A stretch of 36,326 bases of DNA from Candidatus Methylomirabilis sp. (GTDB lineage Bacteria; Methylomirabilota; Methylomirabilia; Methylomirabilales; CSP1-5). Of this stretch, positions 4,469 through 27,604 are shown piece by piece. The stretch covers positions 1-36,326 of the forward strand of contig JAAXQN010000157.1 in NCBI GenBank assembly GCA_012974305.1. The letters run 5' to 3'. The stretch's first letter is position 1. The number at the start of each line of letters is the position of its first letter. A program made the position numbers and the translations under genes. Under the pieces are notes generated by a model, which had not been told where the DNA came from, made no database searches, and worked only from the letters and a program-made list of their open reading frames with translations.

Positions 4469-4822
4469 TGGTGGAGGCGGCGGGAGTCGAACCCGCGTCC
4501 GAGAACAGGCCCATAAAGGCTTCTACATGCTTAGCCTGTGTTTTTTGTCTCGCCAGTAAACGCCCCCACAGGAAGGGTCACTTACCGGCCAGCCCTTTAA
4601 GTCTCGCCCTTCTCCCCCGGGCCGGAGAAGAAAAGCCAGCTCACCTATATGACGCCTTCCCTTCCCCGGTAAGCGAGGAAAGGTGGGCGTGGCTGCTCGT
4701 TAGGCAGCCAGTGCCAGCTGTTGGTTGGCAGTTGTGTGTTTCCCATCTGTTTTACGAGGAAGATGGGACCTCGGCATGCCGCCTCTACTAACCATTGTCC
4801 CCGTCGAAACCCTTTCGCCCCC
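4469..4822 (-). ncRNA. ssrA: Transfer-messenger RNA (tmRNA, SsrA)
   Basis: About 354 nt. The 5' end GGGGGCGAAAGGGTTTCGACG and the 3' end GGTTCGACTCCCGCCGCCTCCACCA (in pieces) form the tRNA-like domain; GGGGGCG pairs with CGCCTCC with one G-U pair, and CCA is encoded. The tag frame at 4700-4744 reads GKHTTANQQLALAA followed by TAA, starting with a GGG resume codon. It ends in the ALAA degron and resembles the GK-initial tag of Bacillus. tmRNA rescues stalled ribosomes with SmpB, whose gene lies directly upstream. Confidence 0.96.
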
Positions 4823-4828
4823 CTTTCT

Positions 4829-4940
4829 GCCGACCACCGATCACCGTTGACCGCTTTGATTCGGACATAGATCATTGGTTCACGGTCGTCGGTCATCGGT
4901 TCACGGTCATCGGTCGTCGGTTATCGGTCGTCGGTCATCG
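4829..4940. repeat. Heptameric tandem array between smpB and ssrA
   Basis: Strict 7-nt period (accgatc, accgttg ... gttcacg, gtcgtcg, gtcatcg, gtcatcg, gtcgtcg). The first units are ACCG-oriented and later ones CGGT-oriented, so the array flips strand. It fills the whole smpB-ssrA gap and includes the smpB stop codon. Confidence 0.8.
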
Positions 4941-5390
4941 GGCTCTCTTAAGTGCGTCGGCGATTTCTCGTTCCTGGGTCCGGCGCTTCAGGTCTTCCCG
5001 TTTATCGTACTGTTTCTTCCCCCGGCACAGGGCTAACTCCACTTTGACCCGGCCGTTTTTCAGATAGAGACTCAGCGGAACAAGGGTTAGCCCCTTCTCC
5101 TGCACCTTTCCGATCAGCCGCCGAATCTCCGCCCGGTGCAGGAGGAGCTTCCGGCGCCGAAGCGGTTCATGGTTGAACCGGTTGGCTGGCGTGTACGGGC
5201 TGATGTGGCAATTTCGAAGAAACACCTCCCCACCCTCCACGGCCCCATAGCCGTCCCGCAGATTCGCCCGTCCCTCTCGGAGCGACTTTACCTCAGTTCC
5301 CGTGAGGGCGATGCCGGCTTCAAACGCCTCATCGATGTGGTAGTCGTGGTAGGCCTTCCGATTCGTGGTAAGTACCTTCCCATGCGCCAT
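4935..5390 (-). CDS. smpB: SsrA-binding protein SmpB
   Basis: 151 aa, the usual SmpB length. It shows the OB-fold hallmarks [33 protein letters not shown] and LIPLSLYL-type [19 protein letters not shown], and the basic C-terminal tail ([20 protein letters not shown]) that inserts into the mRNA channel. It binds tmRNA (gene 112 bp downstream) and delivers it with EF-Tu to stalled ribosomes. The stop codon lies inside a heptamer array. Start ATG at 5390 fits the family. Confidence 0.97.
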
Positions 5391-7481: not shown

Positions 7482-7502
7482 CGCTCGCCATCCCCTTTTT
7501 CT

Positions 7503-7590
7503 GCAGTTCTCAGTTCACCGTTCTCAGTTCGTAGACGCCTCAACCCTTCGCCATCAACCGTGAACCGTGAACCCTGAACCATGAACCAGT
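7503..7590. repeat. Heptameric tandem array, gcvPB-DGQHR gap
   Basis: Twelve consecutive 7-nt units without phase break. The left half is nnnGTTC (gcagttc, tcagttc, accgttc, tcagttc), the right half nnTGAAC (cgtgaac, cgtgaac, cctgaac, catgaac), so the two halves are inverted copies. It starts at the gcvPB stop codon. Confidence 0.85.
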
Positions 7591-10835: not shown

Positions 10836-10940
10836 GAGTTCATGGTTCAGGGTTCACAGTTCACCGACCAGAGTTCAGGGTTCATAGTCAATAGTTCAGG
10901 GTCTATGAACCATCCACCATGAACCCTCAACCGTGAACCG
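10836..10940. repeat. Heptameric tandem array between gcvT and gcvH
   Basis: Fifteen 7-nt units. The first ten are mostly nnGTTCA/ggGTTCA types; then the array flips to TGAACCn (tgaacca, tgaaccc, tgaaccg), giving an imperfect hairpin. It fills the whole space from the gcvT stop to the gcvH ribosome-binding site. Confidence 0.85.
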
Positions 10941-15912: not shown

Positions 15913-16012
15913 AGTTGACCGACGACCGATGGCCGGTGACCGTAAAGAACCAAAAGCATTTTCCGGTGGTCGGTAGTCGGTCGTCGGAGCGGACAGCTGA
16001 TTGCTGACTGCT
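15913..16012. repeat. Heptameric tandem array
   Basis: 7-nt units agttgac, cgacgac, cgatggc, cggtgac, then after a short non-repetitive bridge cggtggt, cggtagt, cggtcgt and gattgct, gactgct. GACCG-oriented units on the left and CGGTC units on the right are inverted copies. It abuts the stop codon of the gene at 16015. Confidence 0.7.
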
Positions 16013-16834: not shown

Positions 16835-16918
16835 GTGTCAGCAGTCAGCGATCAGCTATTAGCCCCAGGATTTCACGACTGACGGCGGACTGCTGGTTGC
16901 TGATGGCTAATATTGACC
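16835..16918. repeat. Heptameric tandem array, GCTGA/TCAGC type
   Basis: Left units gtgtcag, cagtcag, cgatcag, ctattag and right units gactgac, ggcggac, tgctggt, tgctgat, ggctaat are inverted copies around a short non-repetitive centre. It ends about 10 bp before the ATG at 16929. Confidence 0.7.
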
Positions 16919-16928
16919 GGAGTATCCC

Positions 16929-18592: not shown

Positions 18593-19230
18593 ACTGGACC
18601 GGCAACACCCCGCCCGAGATCCTGATTACCCCGCAGGCTTTTCAAAAGCTGCGACTGTACATCGACCTCTGCCCGATGGAGATTGGCGGACTCGGCGAAG
18701 TGGAGCGGGACGGCCACCGTTTCTTGATTACCGATCTCTTCATTCTCCCGCAAAAAGTTTCCCCGGCGGAGACGGAGCTTGACCCGGCGGCCATGCTCGA
18801 AATCCTTGAATGCTGCGTTGCCGAGGGGCGGAATCCTGCATCCCTGTGTCTGTGGTGGCACAGCCACGCAGAGATGGACCTGGAGTGGAGTGAAACCGAT
18901 AAACGCACCATCGCGAATTTCTCCGGGGACTTTATGATCTCTGTCGTCGGCAATAAGGCCGGCGCCTTTGCCTGTCGCCTCGACACCTTGGACTCGAACG
19001 GGCAGACGCTCGGGGATCTTTCCCTGACGATCCTTCCCAGCGAGGGGACTGAAGTGGACGAGGCAGTTCTCCGCAGCGCCATCATTGCCGAGATGTGCGA
19101 GAAGCTCCAAGTGATCAACAAGGATCTGCAGTTTCATGAGATCCCTGTCGAAGTGGAATTTTTGTCTCCCTTCCCCCCTGAGCTTTGCCCGCCAGAGTCC
19201 CCATCCTCGTCGGTGACCGACGACCGTTGA
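18589..19230 (+). CDS. JAMM/MPN-type metal isopeptidase (Mov34/PAD-1-like)
   Basis: 213 aa from GTG 18589, which overlaps the preceding stop (GTGA) and has GGAGG at proper spacing. The full JAMM zinc signature is present: Glu31 (CPMEIGGLGEV), then H91-S-H93 followed by seven residues, S101, two residues, D104 (HSHAEMDLEWSETD). JAMM enzymes remove ubiquitin-like proteins from targets or trim their C-termini. The downstream half is unassigned. The last residues (SSVTDDR) are encoded by a heptamer array. Coupling to the E2-like gene argues for a joint conjugation/deconjugation role. Confidence 0.85.
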   Translation: MNWTGNTPPEILITPQAFQKLRLYIDLCPMEIGGLGEVERDGHRFLITDLFILPQKVSPAETELDPAAMLEILECCVAEGRNPASLCLWWHSHAEMDLEWSETDKRTIANFSGDFMISVVGNKAGAFACRLDTLDSNGQTLGDLSLTILPSEGTEVDEAVLRSAIIAEMCEKLQVINKDLQFHEIPVEVEFLSPFPPELCPPESPSSSVTDDR

Positions 19231-19287
19231 CCGCGAACCAAGAGCTCGGACATTGGACCTCGGACCTTAAGCCGTGAAGCGTGAACA
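19211..19287. repeat. Heptameric tandem array overlapping the JAMM gene end
   Basis: Eleven 7-nt units: cggtgac, cgacgac, cgttgac, cgcgaac, caagagc, tcggaca, ttggacc, tcggacc, ttaagcc, gtgaagc, gtgaaca. The first units encode the JAMM C-terminus and stop. Confidence 0.75.
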
Positions 19288-21397: not shown

Positions 21398-21739
21398 ATG
21401 ATCACAGGGCAGGAGCGGAAACGCATGGAAGAGCGATTCGGGGAGATCGGTGAGGGCCTCACCGAACTCACCATAGAGGGGAAGCGGTACGATCTGTATC
21501 AACTGCTCAAGGGCATAGGATTAGACCACGCTGACATCCGCCCCATCGACGCCCACGTCGTCGATGCGCCCAACCGCTTCGCCATCCGGTACTTTGACCT
21601 GGAGGACCGGTGCATCGTCGCCTACGAGTTCGACCCCGAATTCCGGTATCTGGGGGAGGTTCGGGCCCATATAGACGAATGGATGGGAAATGACTACTAC
21701 GACTTCCCCTGGTCCATCTCTTGCCCCGACTCCTTCTGA
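21398..21739 (+). CDS. Hypothetical protein, 113 aa
   Basis: ATG 21398 is preceded by GAGG at 6 nt. Acidic protein with an N-terminal helical part (ERKRMEERFGEIGEGL) and alternating hydrophobic strands (FAIRYFDLEDRCIVAYEFD). No known family. An extended -10 box (TGCTATATT, near 21284-21292) lies upstream, overlapping a half-site ATAGAAC like that of the IclR operators. Confidence 0.6.
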   Translation: MITGQERKRMEERFGEIGEGLTELTIEGKRYDLYQLLKGIGLDHADIRPIDAHVVDAPNRFAIRYFDLEDRCIVAYEFDPEFRYLGEVRAHIDEWMGNDYYDFPWSISCPDSF

Positions 21740-22019
21740 TCCCTGCCCCAAGGAAACGTGGCGGATCCAGGGGATCGGATGGGAGAGACGCGGGTTCGCC
21801 TATGAGGGGACCGCGAAAAACGACCAGGAGGACCTTTCCTTCTCCCTCCGTTACCATGAAACCCACTTGGCTCTAGCGATCTATTCGTCCCGACCTGCCG
21901 CCTTTCAGCTTGTAGAGCACCTGAGCAAAACCCTGGGAAAGCCAACCACCGGCCCCGATCTTCTCAACATCGGAGAGCTCAGCGACAGCGACGGGGAAGT
22001 CTCCACCTATACCGTTTAG
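21690..22019 (+). CDS. Hypothetical protein, about 109 aa
   Basis: The open frame overlaps the previous gene by 50 bp; the first 15 residues (Thr/Ser/Pro-rich) are probably not natural, and the true start is unclear because no ATG/GTG/TTG follows soon. From about residue 20 it looks protein-like (GWERRGFAYEGTAKNDQED, LSFSLRYHETHLALAIYSS). Possibly translated by coupling or frameshift from the upstream gene. No family recognised. Confidence 0.45.
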   Translation: MTTTTSPGPSLAPTPSDPCPKETWRIQGIGWERRGFAYEGTAKNDQEDLSFSLRYHETHLALAIYSSRPAAFQLVEHLSKTLGKPTTGPDLLNIGELSDSDGEVSTYTV

Positions 22020-22023
22020 TTTG

Positions 22024-22128
22024 TCCGTGGTTCGTGATTGGTGGTAGGTGGTTGGTGAAAACCACCAGCCACTAATCACTAGTCACCAGTCACTATCGGT
22101 CATCGGTCAACGGTCGTCGGTCATCGAG
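22024..22128. repeat. Heptameric tandem array, GTGG/CCAC then CGGT type
   Basis: Fifteen consecutive 7-nt units without phase break: tccgtgg, ttcgtga, ttggtgg, taggtgg, ttggtga, aaaccac, cagccac, taatcac, tagtcac, cagtcac, tatcggt, catcggt, caacggt, cgtcggt, catcgag. Three unit families follow one another, the first two being inverted copies. Confidence 0.9.
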
Positions 22129-22136
22129 GTGCAGAG

Positions 22137-23492
22137 ATGGATGAGCATCCACGGATCGCCCCGCAGCGAAGACACCTCGAGAGACAGGCGCAAGATCTCT
22201 TAGAGCGCGTCCCCTTCATGGAGGACGAAGAGCTGCGGTGGACCGTTCGGTTTCTCAGAGATTGTCTCCCCCCTATGGAGCAAGCCGCAATGCTCCGGGA
22301 CCACAGTGAGCATCTCGACCTCCATCAGATGCGGCAGATGGTGGAGCAGTTTATCCCCCGGTACACGGACCATGCCCTTGAGGCGCTGGAGGCCAAGCGG
22401 TTTACCTCGGGACAAAGCCTTCGGGATTTGACCGATGAAGAACTCCAGGGGATCTCTGCGGCAGAGAAGTGGGATCTCTTCCTGCAAGATTCCACTGCCT
22501 TACAGCCATATCAGGTCCGGCGAGAGCTGGCGCGCCTGTTCATGTGTCTCAATTTCGACCTTTTTCATGACACCCTCTCGGCAGAAGCGGCGATCGAATT
22601 TAGCGCCTACCTTGACCTCGTGGAACGTTTCGGCGCACTGTCGGATCAGGCGATCGAGAATCTGAAAGAGCAGGCCGTCGCTGCCTTTCGAGGCCTCAAT
22701 GTTCGAGACGTCTCTGCAGTGGAGGCGGCGTTGGCCACACTGCGGGAGGCCATCGGCGGGGCAGCAGGTCTCAATCCGCCCTTCGATTCCCTCTTCAGCG
22801 AGCGGATGGAGCGATGGCCCGCGAGCGCTCCAGAAACCCTCCCGGACGTGTTAAATCCGGAAATCACGGCCGCCGTCGAGGCGATGAATCTCGAGCAGCT
22901 GCAGACCTCTCTCCGGGTTCTGATGGAGTTGATGAGCCTGGAAGAACAACAACGGGAGATCGAGCCCCTCAAGGGAAAATATCGTTCCCTCACTGATATC
23001 CCCGCCGAGGAGCTCAGCATCTTCCTTCCCCAACTCTCCATGCGGTTAGGAGATAGGAATGTCTGCGACTTCGCTCTTCGATACCGGTCAGGGCGTCTCT
23101 GGGCTCGGGAAAAGGTGAGTCCGCAGGCCTGGAAGCTCCTCCCCTTCCAGGACAAATTCATGGTGCTCGAGGCAGATAACGATGCCATGGACTTGCTGCA
23201 GGCCTCCCGGCACCTGACTCGCCTCTTGCTCACCGACGGATACGAACGCCTCTTTGATCCTGCCTATCAGGTTGCCCTGACACACGAGCCTCTGTATCGC
23301 CGCGTCCTCGACTACTGCATGACGGAGCTTCAGGACCGAGACCAGCTGCAACGGGTGAACCGCCAGGTCACCAGAATGATGCTGGAGCTCGAGGAGCTCG
23401 TGCCGGAAGGGGAGAGAGCGGGTCGGTTTCTTGAGATCCGGGAGGTCATCGGCAAGATCTTCAAGATCGAACCGCCCGCCGAAAAGCAATAA
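22137..23492 (+). CDS. Large helical protein of unknown function
   Basis: 451 aa, almost entirely predicted helical, rich in Leu/Glu/Arg (MRQMVEQFIPRYTDHALEAL, EQLQTSLRVLMELMSLEEQQ). No signal peptide, catalytic motif or known family recognised. ATG has GAGG 7 nt upstream. Its stop overlaps the start of the TPR gene by one base (TAATG), so the two are translationally coupled and probably interact. It belongs to the same-strand block after the JAMM and E2-like genes. Confidence 0.75.
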   Translation: MDEHPRIAPQRRHLERQAQDLLERVPFMEDEELRWTVRFLRDCLPPMEQAAMLRDHSEHLDLHQMRQMVEQFIPRYTDHALEALEAKRFTSGQSLRDLTDEELQGISAAEKWDLFLQDSTALQPYQVRRELARLFMCLNFDLFHDTLSAEAAIEFSAYLDLVERFGALSDQAIENLKEQAVAAFRGLNVRDVSAVEAALATLREAIGGAAGLNPPFDSLFSERMERWPASAPETLPDVLNPEITAAVEAMNLEQLQTSLRVLMELMSLEEQQREIEPLKGKYRSLTDIPAEELSIFLPQLSMRLGDRNVCDFALRYRSGRLWAREKVSPQAWKLLPFQDKFMVLEADNDAMDLLQASRHLTRLLLTDGYERLFDPAYQVALTHEPLYRRVLDYCMTELQDRDQLQRVNRQVTRMMLELEELVPEGERAGRFLEIREVIGKIFKIEPPAEKQ

Positions 23493-25162: not shown

Positions 25163-25207
25163 ACACCCCTGCACCTTCTGCCCTCTCTGTACCTGCTGCA
25201 CCTGCGC

Positions 25208-26434: not shown

Positions 26435-26457
26435 CGTCTCCTCCTTTTCACCTCGCT

Positions 26458-26531
26458 GTCAGCAATCTACCGCCATCGATCAAGAAATGACCTTGAGCTG
26501 ATTGCCGACCGCTGATTGCTGATTGCCGATG
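26458..26531. repeat. Heptameric tandem array, GCTGATT type, within a gene end
   Basis: Clear units gctgatt, gccgacc, gctgatt, gctgatt, gccgatg at 26497-26531, with weaker units to the left. It includes the last codons and stop of the U32 gene at 26480. Confidence 0.65.
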
Positions 26532-27430
26532 TAGAGCTGCCCTGATTGACCGAAATAGAAGCCGTTACACAGCCCCACCTTTGCGTGTGCCTGGATTTTT
26601 TGCCACCACGCCTCGCGAATCTCGTATGCACTGCTGCAGGCCTGTTCGAGGGCTTCCCGGTAGACCATGCCAATGTCACGGCGGTATGCAGGATCCTCCG
26701 AAACTGCCTCGATTCTGAAGAAGCGAAACCCACCCGCCACCAGACGGGGCAGATACTCGAGCATACAGACATCCCGGCCGCTCAGGACTCCCTTCCCCGT
26801 TGACTTCATCGCCCAATCCCCTTGACGGAGAAACAAGTCCTGCTGACAGAGATCCGGACACTGCATCCCCCACGCCTTTTCATACTCCAGCAGGAAGCAA
26901 TAGTCGGAGATCCCTAACGGCATCTTGCCGTGGACCAAAATCTCAAGGGGGAGACTGGTGCTGTGGGCCATCCCTTCGATCTCCTCCAGGGAGAGCTCGT
27001 AGTTGGGAGTCACTCGGGTCCCCCCGTAGTCTCGGAGGACCAATGCCCCTGTATCGGTATAGACATTCGCAAACCCGCCGATGTGGATCGAAAGTGCGGG
27101 AAACTCGTTCCGGAGGATCCGCACCACCCCGAGGTTGTGCGCTTCAACGGCGTCCACCCCCTCCTCTGCTGCCACGGCGATTGCCTTGCGGATTTGCGGG
27201 AGAAAATAGTTGCGGGGGGCTGCATACGTGGTGAGATATACCTTGCAACCTGCCTCTCGGCAGTGGCGGATCCCTGCTCGGAGATCGTCCAGCTTCTCCA
27301 AAAAGTTGGCCTCGTAATCTCGGCAGTAGAGATTCCCCAGATAGACCGCATCATACGGACTCAAATCCGAGGCCACCAGATCTTTCATATTCGAGATTGC
27401 CATATTCAGCTCGAACAATTCAGAGTTCAT
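26480..27430 (-). CDS. U32 family protein 2
   Basis: 316 aa. LSPYDAVYLGNLYCRDY, VDAVEAHNLGVVRILRNEFP and VHGKMPLGISDYCF with later Cys (MQCPDLCQQD, VCMLEYLP) fit a U32 core with Fe-S ligands. The C-terminal tail (IGNQQSAVGNQLKVIS) is encoded by a heptamer array, so it is probably a recent extension. The first codons (MNSELFELN) touch another array; ATG 27403 (MAISNM) is an alternative start. It probably works with the flanking U32 proteins. Confidence 0.8.
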   Translation of the reverse strand: MNSELFELNMAISNMKDLVASDLSPYDAVYLGNLYCRDYEANFLEKLDDLRAGIRHCREAGCKVYLTTYAAPRNYFLPQIRKAIAVAAEEGVDAVEAHNLGVVRILRNEFPALSIHIGGFANVYTDTGALVLRDYGGTRVTPNYELSLEEIEGMAHSTSLPLEILVHGKMPLGISDYCFLLEYEKAWGMQCPDLCQQDLFLRQGDWAMKSTGKGVLSGRDVCMLEYLPRLVAGGFRFFRIEAVSEDPAYRRDIGMVYREALEQACSSAYEIREAWWQKIQAHAKVGLCNGFYFGQSGQLYIGNQQSAVGNQLKVIS

Positions 27431-27604
27431 AGTTCAGAGTTGAGAGTTGAGGGTCTAAGGTCCAACGTCCAAAGTCCGATGTCGCCAAGAGCGAGGAGGG
27501 GGTTCAATAAATCTGAAACTCGAATTTCGAAATTCGAAATGTCCAGGGTCGTCGGTCATCGGTCGACGGTCATCGTTTCCGACTGCTGATCGCTGACTGC
27601 TGTT
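27424..27604. repeat. Long heptameric tandem array between two U32 genes
   Basis: Two runs: 27424-27486 (agttcat, agttcag, agttgag, agttgag, ggtctaa, ggtccaa, cgtccaa, agtccga) and 27514-27604 (tgaaact, cgaattt, cgaaatt, cgaaatg, tccaggg, tcgtcgg, tcatcgg, tcgacgg, tcatcgt, ttccgac, tgctgat, cgctgac), with about 27 non-repetitive bases between. No gene is seen here. Confidence 0.85.

Follow-up and report, generated by a model that had tools for sequence, protein, structure and literature searches.

The window, that is, the whole stretch of 36 326 nucleotides that was analysed, is contig C22 of a 2.82 Mb draft genome of Candidatus Methylomirabilis sp. Its features include a tmRNA gene, which was the sole match in an Rfam scan of the window, the genes gcvT, gcvH and gcvP2 and an ORF for a U32 peptidase. 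Gaps between the genes contain arrays of degenerate 7 nt units (Table 1), with GTTCANN, CGGTCNT, GCTGANN and GTGRTTG as the main units of this genome. Unit-to-unit identity in its arrays is 0.73 (∼73%), several families occur per genome and per array, and near-perfect units of a single consensus were not found in these arrays. The sequence-only reading had listed nine gaps filled with such units. Seven is the best short lag at all nine, and the arrays at 4829, 7503, 10836, 15913, 22024 and 27424 are strong; those at 16835 and 19211 are weak, and at 26458 the scoring run (26511–26530; TRF 26497–26530) falls within the 3′-terminal part of the U32-peptidase ORF.

Table 1. Heptad arrays and associated features of the window
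Positions	Strand	Feature	Lag-7 score	Fold z	Remarks
4469–4822	-	tmRNA gene adjoining the 4829 array			Rfam RF00023, 214.7 bits
4829–4941	-	GACCG..CGGTC array		-4.1	Between ORF 4935–5390 and tmRNA
7499–7588	-	GTTCA..TGAAC hairpin		-3.5	Downstream of gcvP2
10838–10940	-	GTTCA..TGAAC hairpin		-6.6	Between gcvT and gcvH
15913–15987		GACCG..CGGTC inverted arms
16837–16920		TCAGC..GCTGA inverted arms	10		Weak
19211–19285		GACCG block, right-end fragment of the ∼205 bp element, TCGGAC-type units	8		Weak
19214–19250		Right-end fragment of the ∼205 bp element			92% match to element bases 188–224
22023–22057	+	5′ arm of the 22024 hairpin, five GTGRTTG-family units	13		Pairs with 22062–22093
22062–22093	+	3′ arm, CACYARN units	12.5		Reverse complement of the first block
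22095–22126	+	CGGTCNT block, another family, single arm	15		Kept in G006 (L261 alignment)
26449–26530		TCAGC/GCTGA-type units			About three units in the gap, the rest in the predicted ORF end
27419–27602		Composite: GTTCA/GTTGA, GTCCRA, left end of the ∼205 bp element, GAATTTC palindrome, CGGTC, GCTGA
27480–27503		Left end of the ∼205 bp element			Within the 27419–27602 composite

The array at 22024 had been described as 15 units with no phase break. It does follow a single 7 nt grid, but it consists of three blocks and lag-7 continuity is broken at the two joins between them. Blocks 1 and 2 form a predicted 29 bp RNA stem (22027–22093) interrupted by single mismatches, and the entire stretch has a predicted folding energy of −47.8 kcal/mol (z = −5.5). 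No GACCG partner for the CGGTCNT block is found within the 22024 gap. Composites resembling this array occur at C172, C4, C242 and C86, with 76–81% identity across matched segments of 53–94 bp. In the close relative G006, in which the protein adjoining the array is 95% identical, the orthologous gap contains GCTGA-type units in place of the GTGRTTG hairpin and retains the CGGTC block. A reading of the array as an intrinsic terminator was rejected, as the stem-loop is without a T-run in the region scanned (21700–22400); some paralogous copies of the 22024-type composite carry T4–T5.

Periodicity was assessed by local lag segments. Autocorrelation over whole intergenic DNA was dropped as uninformative owing to uncalled coding sequence and runs of N that swamp the signal. 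Coding DNA displays no lag-7 excess. The window contains eight local lag-7 segments scoring 12 or more, compared with a mean of 0.017 and a maximum of one in 60 locally dinucleotide-shuffled windows, and the same test gave zero segments at lags 5, 6, 8, 9, 10, 11 and 13. Results for the rest of this genome rest on ∼0.66 Mb of sampled stretches, with a less biased subset of 385 kb. This subset holds 23 segments at lag 7 (18 of them intergenic), seven each at lags 14 and 21 and 0–2 at every other lag, corresponding to a lag-7 density of 5.98 per 100 kb against a mean of 0.16 for lags 5, 8, 10, 11 and 13. The claim of a genome-wide set of 7 nt arrays belonging to a few unit families thus holds in the sampled DNA; apart from a small lag-8 class, the excess is at lag 7 and multiples of it. 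A smaller lag-8 class is also seen in G002 and G013. The periodicity extends to other genomes of the order. Lag-7 segments number ten in G002 of the same genus (2.5 per 100 kb versus 0.25 for other lags), 15 in G026 of the same order, a single contig of 2 752 854 bp (3.75 versus 0.05), and 17 in G013 of another family (11.5 versus 1.2), whereas no segment was found in the 164 kb sampled from G035, which belongs to a different order of the class (other lags 0.12 per 100 kb). Among 80 control loci from other phyla (1.43 Mb), which were picked as gcvT homologues, there are 18 lag-7 segments and at most eight at any other lag (1.26 versus 0.25 per 100 kb). The phenomenon is therefore strong in Methylomirabilales and weak but real elsewhere.

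Inverted halves are common in the arrays, as the sequence-only reading had noted, but the switch between strands is not free. Among same-family inverted pairs lying within 120 nt of each other, counted after removal of duplicates, each family has a single polarity (GTTCA..TGAAC 15:0, GACCG..CGGTC 11:0 and TCAGC..GCTGA 5:0; 31 of 31), although the counts are partly non-independent because some of the loci are orthologous between species. The flipping is therefore not random inversion. Families also follow an order: proceeding inwards, GTTCA precedes GTCCRA in 18 cases and follows it in two, and 14 of 19 transitions from GTTCA to GTCCRA or GACCG fall on the 7 nt grid. Similarity between units decreases with distance (0.43, 0.37, 0.34, 0.30 and 0.28 at lags 7 to 35), a curve that is partly biased because the arrays were chosen by lag-7 similarity. 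Within the unit, single-base divergence sits mainly at two neighbouring positions (observed 0.59, expected 0.49; 63 of 86 arrays in this genome). Derivation of all families from one ancestral heptad (NRKTSAY) was considered and rejected, since the GTTCA and CGGTC consensus sequences match better in opposite orientation.

Orthologous gaps, the comparison of which had been suggested, preserve the heptad-hairpin layout while the unit family or one module is exchanged. In the gap between gcvT and gcvH, the layout [GTTCA]..[TGAAC] is common to this genome, G002, G004 and G005, heptad arms surround unrelated inserts in G003 and the f6 relatives, and the layout is missing in the f4, f3 and f7 relatives compared. 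Measured between the stop codon and the ribosome-binding site, the orthologous gaps are 111, 83, 83 and 55 nt long, and all four values are 6 modulo 7. Together with the in-phase transitions described above, these lengths show that the gap changes by gain or loss of whole units, which partly answers how a 7 nt phase is kept as the sequence diverges, a question that the sequence-only reading had left unexplained. Upstream of the tmRNA gene three families occupy the same place: GACCG/CGGTC in this genome, GTGGTTG/CACTAAT in G002 and GTTCA/TGAAC in G005. A palindromic GACCG..CGGTC array of 102 bp is present at a site where the gap in G026 is 3 bp. Other repeats were also seen. In the distant relatives G026 (L143) and G013 (L139), CCCCCTTTATTAAAGGGGG-type palindromes are inserted between gcvT and gcvH, and the copy in G013 lies between inverted TATGCGCTAACTTA. 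A second dispersed element, AGTAAACGC..GCGTTTACTTTGGAGCAATGGAGCA.., occurs in two unrelated gaps of G002 (L225 near 10563 and L275 downstream of gcvP2), one of which matches a gap in this genome that holds a heptad hairpin. Positions 25163–25207 of the window contain CTGCACCTG-type repeats, and the orthologous gaps of G002 (L234, 12495 and 12816) hold far longer degenerate TTCTGCAC arrays with a period of ∼7–9.

An all-against-all comparison of intergenic DNA revealed an element of ∼205 bp with terminal inverted repeats (CCAAGAGCGAGGAGGG..CCCTCCGAGCTCTTGG). Genomes of the genus each hold 4–16 full or partial matches, with essentially none in other genomes, and the element is dispersed at unrelated loci in the manner of a MITE. 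No credible Rfam match was found for it. All 15 copies examined have a lag-7 array in the left flank, whereas 9% of control gaps contain one, and by inspection the right flank usually has one too; a short target-site duplication would be masked because the flanks consist of heptad arrays. Gene calls alone place partial copies at seven loci between ordinary-looking genes. The arrays themselves are also dispersed as modules. The composite [GTTCA][GTCCRA]-core-[CGGTC] recurs at separate loci with differing cores, a GAATTTC palindrome and a GTGRTTG hairpin being alternatives between like arms. Unrelated loci thus carry composites that agree in their unit families and in the order and polarity of these, and the composites nest with each other and with the ∼205 bp element. 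A link to RAYT/REPIN systems is not supported, as there are no arrays within 1.2 kb of the Y1-transposase genes at any of the three readable Y1_Tnp loci; Y1_Tnp is absent in G001 and G004. A further repeated intergenic element of this genome (L161, 17189–17504; ∼195 bp), with ends CTAGCCCG/CGGGCTAG, has copies in L183, L185, L167 and L174 that are mostly 90–95% identical.

The proposal that the arrays can fold into long hairpins agrees with the predictions, in which most of the folded hairpins have z values of −2.7 to −6.6, with −1.7 for the gcv hairpin of G004. Array gaps are predicted to form more stable RNA folds than other gaps (median z of −1.95 versus −0.38; p = 0.0005). Their orientation also differs, with 45 co-directional, four convergent and no divergent array gaps against 211, 22 and 37 other gaps, respectively (divergent share 0/49 versus 37/270, p = 0.0026; gaps of 60–500 bp in a pooled sample that includes contigs chosen for carrying arrays). 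Pairing in a five-plus-two pattern was discarded as evidence: for the five core positions the argument is circular, because the inverted pairs were found by those letters, which leaves the two variable positions as the informative ones. These do not stay paired (24 of 78 and 39 of 78 cases are paired), giving no indication of compensatory maintenance there.

Much of this has precedents. The GGGAATC repeats of Xanthomonas and the GGGGA(C/T)T repeats of Nostoc PCC7120 are intergenic runs of 2–26 units, mostly between co-directional genes and variable in length among related species (Rehm et al., 2015; PMC4692102), and the Xanthomonas heptamers form ∼70 convergent inverted pairs per genome (PMC4692102). 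Intergenic 7 nt units in convergent inverted pairs (31 same-family pairs here) are thus shared, and flipped arrays also occur in acidobacterial and deltaproteobacterial control loci and on a Persicobacter plasmid, so that flipping does not set the present arrays apart from known heptameric repeats as had been supposed. The Xanthomonas/Nostoc type has a single G-rich family per genome with G-quadruplex potential, whereas here there are many families that are not G-rich, with ∼73% identity, and the main units contain no GGG runs; in-phase transitions between families, the swapping of families and the nesting of dispersed elements are further differences from the Xanthomonas type. Cyanobacterial STRRs and the TAACTGA repeats of Beggiatoaceae, cyanobacteria and Bacteroidetes are intergenic heptamer arrays, sometimes of mixed families (MacGregor, 2015; PMC4679880), and share with our arrays indels in 7 nt steps, there between close strains (PMC4679880). 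The TAACTGA sets, however, are near-perfect direct repeats located mostly just upstream of start codons, with inverted pairing being rare (one indirect repeat in BOGUAY; PMC4679880). REPINs are dispersed and nested intergenic inverted doublets that form hairpins and adjoin a RAYT gene (PMC3116915); the hairpin-forming inverted pairs are alike, but REPINs are without 7 nt periodicity. Heptads (GGTCATC/T and CCCCACT) are also present in a Nostoc plasmid. Small dispersed repeats (SDR) of Nostoc are reportedly often embedded in tandem heptamers or minitransposons (Elhai et al., 2008). By description, not by sequence, these resemble our case in being small dispersed elements nested in heptamer arrays, although the SDR measure 21–27 nt, compared with ∼205 bp and inverted-repeat ends for the present element. 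An excess of heptamers, their intergenic location and their inverted pairs (Xanthomonas), as well as mixed arrays with 7 nt indels (cyanobacteria and others), are therefore already known (PMC4692102, PMC4679880). In the open-access literature searched we found no report of heptamers in Methylomirabilis and no description of arrays that combine several degenerate families, each with one polarity, with exchange of families between orthologous gaps and consistent occurrence beside a dispersed element that has inverted-repeat ends.

We give about even chances to the view that the arrays are modular, palindromic, non-autonomous elements of a MITE- or REPIN-like kind, dispersed and nested, with degenerate heptad arms that are locally remodelled in 7 nt steps. 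Modules would spread among intergenic sites through a putative trans-acting transposase or ectopic copying (gene conversion), probably with a preference for existing arrays as targets. Landed copies would then be remodelled by gain and loss of 7 nt units, a process that would hold the phase while point changes accumulate. In transcripts the arrays would fold as long imperfect hairpins that may be tolerated between co-directional genes and may sometimes serve as operon spacers or mRNA-stability hairpins. Fixed polarity, composite order, in-phase transitions, the flanking of the ∼205 bp element, swaps of modules and families, the 102 bp array opposite a 3 bp gap, the gcv lengths and the decay of similarity all support modular elements. 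Against them, no transposase or autonomous partner was identified by gene call at the seven partial-copy loci, the three Y1-transposase genes inspected have no arrays nearby, no target-site duplication was defined in the array-bearing flanks, and for most arrays the shortness and degeneracy of the heptad arms prevent proof that loci are homologous. That lag 7 is also in excess in unrelated phyla suggests a general mutational tendency, for which no mobile element would be needed. Purely local mutation, in which 7 nt replication slippage produces tandem units and template switching at quasi-palindromes produces inverted copies with neither mobility nor selection, would draw on that excess at the 80 control loci, on the whole-unit length change at gcvT–gcvH and on the fact that in many bacteria no other long simple repeat is as common as the heptamer, for which slippage over a polymerase footprint has been proposed (PMC4679880, PMC4692102, citing Mrazek). 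We nevertheless consider it improbable, since independent local events would not give 31:0 polarity, a shared composite order at unrelated loci or heptad arrays at 15 of 15 copies of the element; the dispersed composites already refute it in part.

Selection on RNA is similarly doubtful as the explanation. On that account intercistronic stem-loops would stabilize or separate operon mRNAs, so that the architecture would be conserved as the sequence turns over. The layout kept with three unrelated families upstream of tmRNA and genus-wide at gcvT–gcvH is consistent with this, as are the predicted folding of array gaps and their absence from divergent positions, but the variable unit positions are not kept paired, many arrays are single-armed, the gcv hairpin of G004 folds poorly and the 22024 array lacks a T-run terminator. 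The concentration of variation in two adjacent columns could also point to candidate direct-repeat sites for a DNA- or RNA-binding protein that reads five of the seven bases. The many unrelated unit families, their replacement at orthologous gaps and the avoidance of divergent (promoter) gaps make this very improbable. The readings based on mobile elements, slippage and RNA selection are not exclusive, and hairpins that moved or were copied may persist where they are helpful or harmless.

A broader form of the mobile-element reading, which we regard as unlikely, would be a class of mobile or copied elements with ends that are grown and rebuilt in 7 nt steps, so that phase, polarity and outside-to-inside order are fixed and unit sequence is replaced; it would be active in Methylomirabilales and possibly lie behind the heptamer arrays of other phyla. 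If true, this would make architecture, rather than sequence, the defining trait of a repeat family. Many bacteria favour heptamers among their long simple repeats, and the cause of this preference is not known to have been demonstrated. The combination of many degenerate arrays, sequenced congeners and synteny makes slippage, template switching, transposition and selection separable in Methylomirabilales, where fixed polarity and family swapping at orthologous gaps are testable facts that slippage alone does not predict.

Heptad arrays of several further kinds were encountered. Strand-flipped arrays lie near gcvT in an acidobacterium (L051, 11498–11583) and a deltaproteobacterium (L066, 11296–11381). 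The Persicobacter plasmid pPP9 (Bacteroidota; L286, ∼1480–1575) carries a hairpin of degenerate TGGTGAC/GTCACCA-type heptads, with TTTT after it. Finally, the units of a 170 bp array at L031 (1138–1307) drift through TTAGGTG, CTGAGTG, GTGAGAG, CTAAACT, CTCAACC and GACTTTG, remaining on the 7 nt grid for the first 140 bp.
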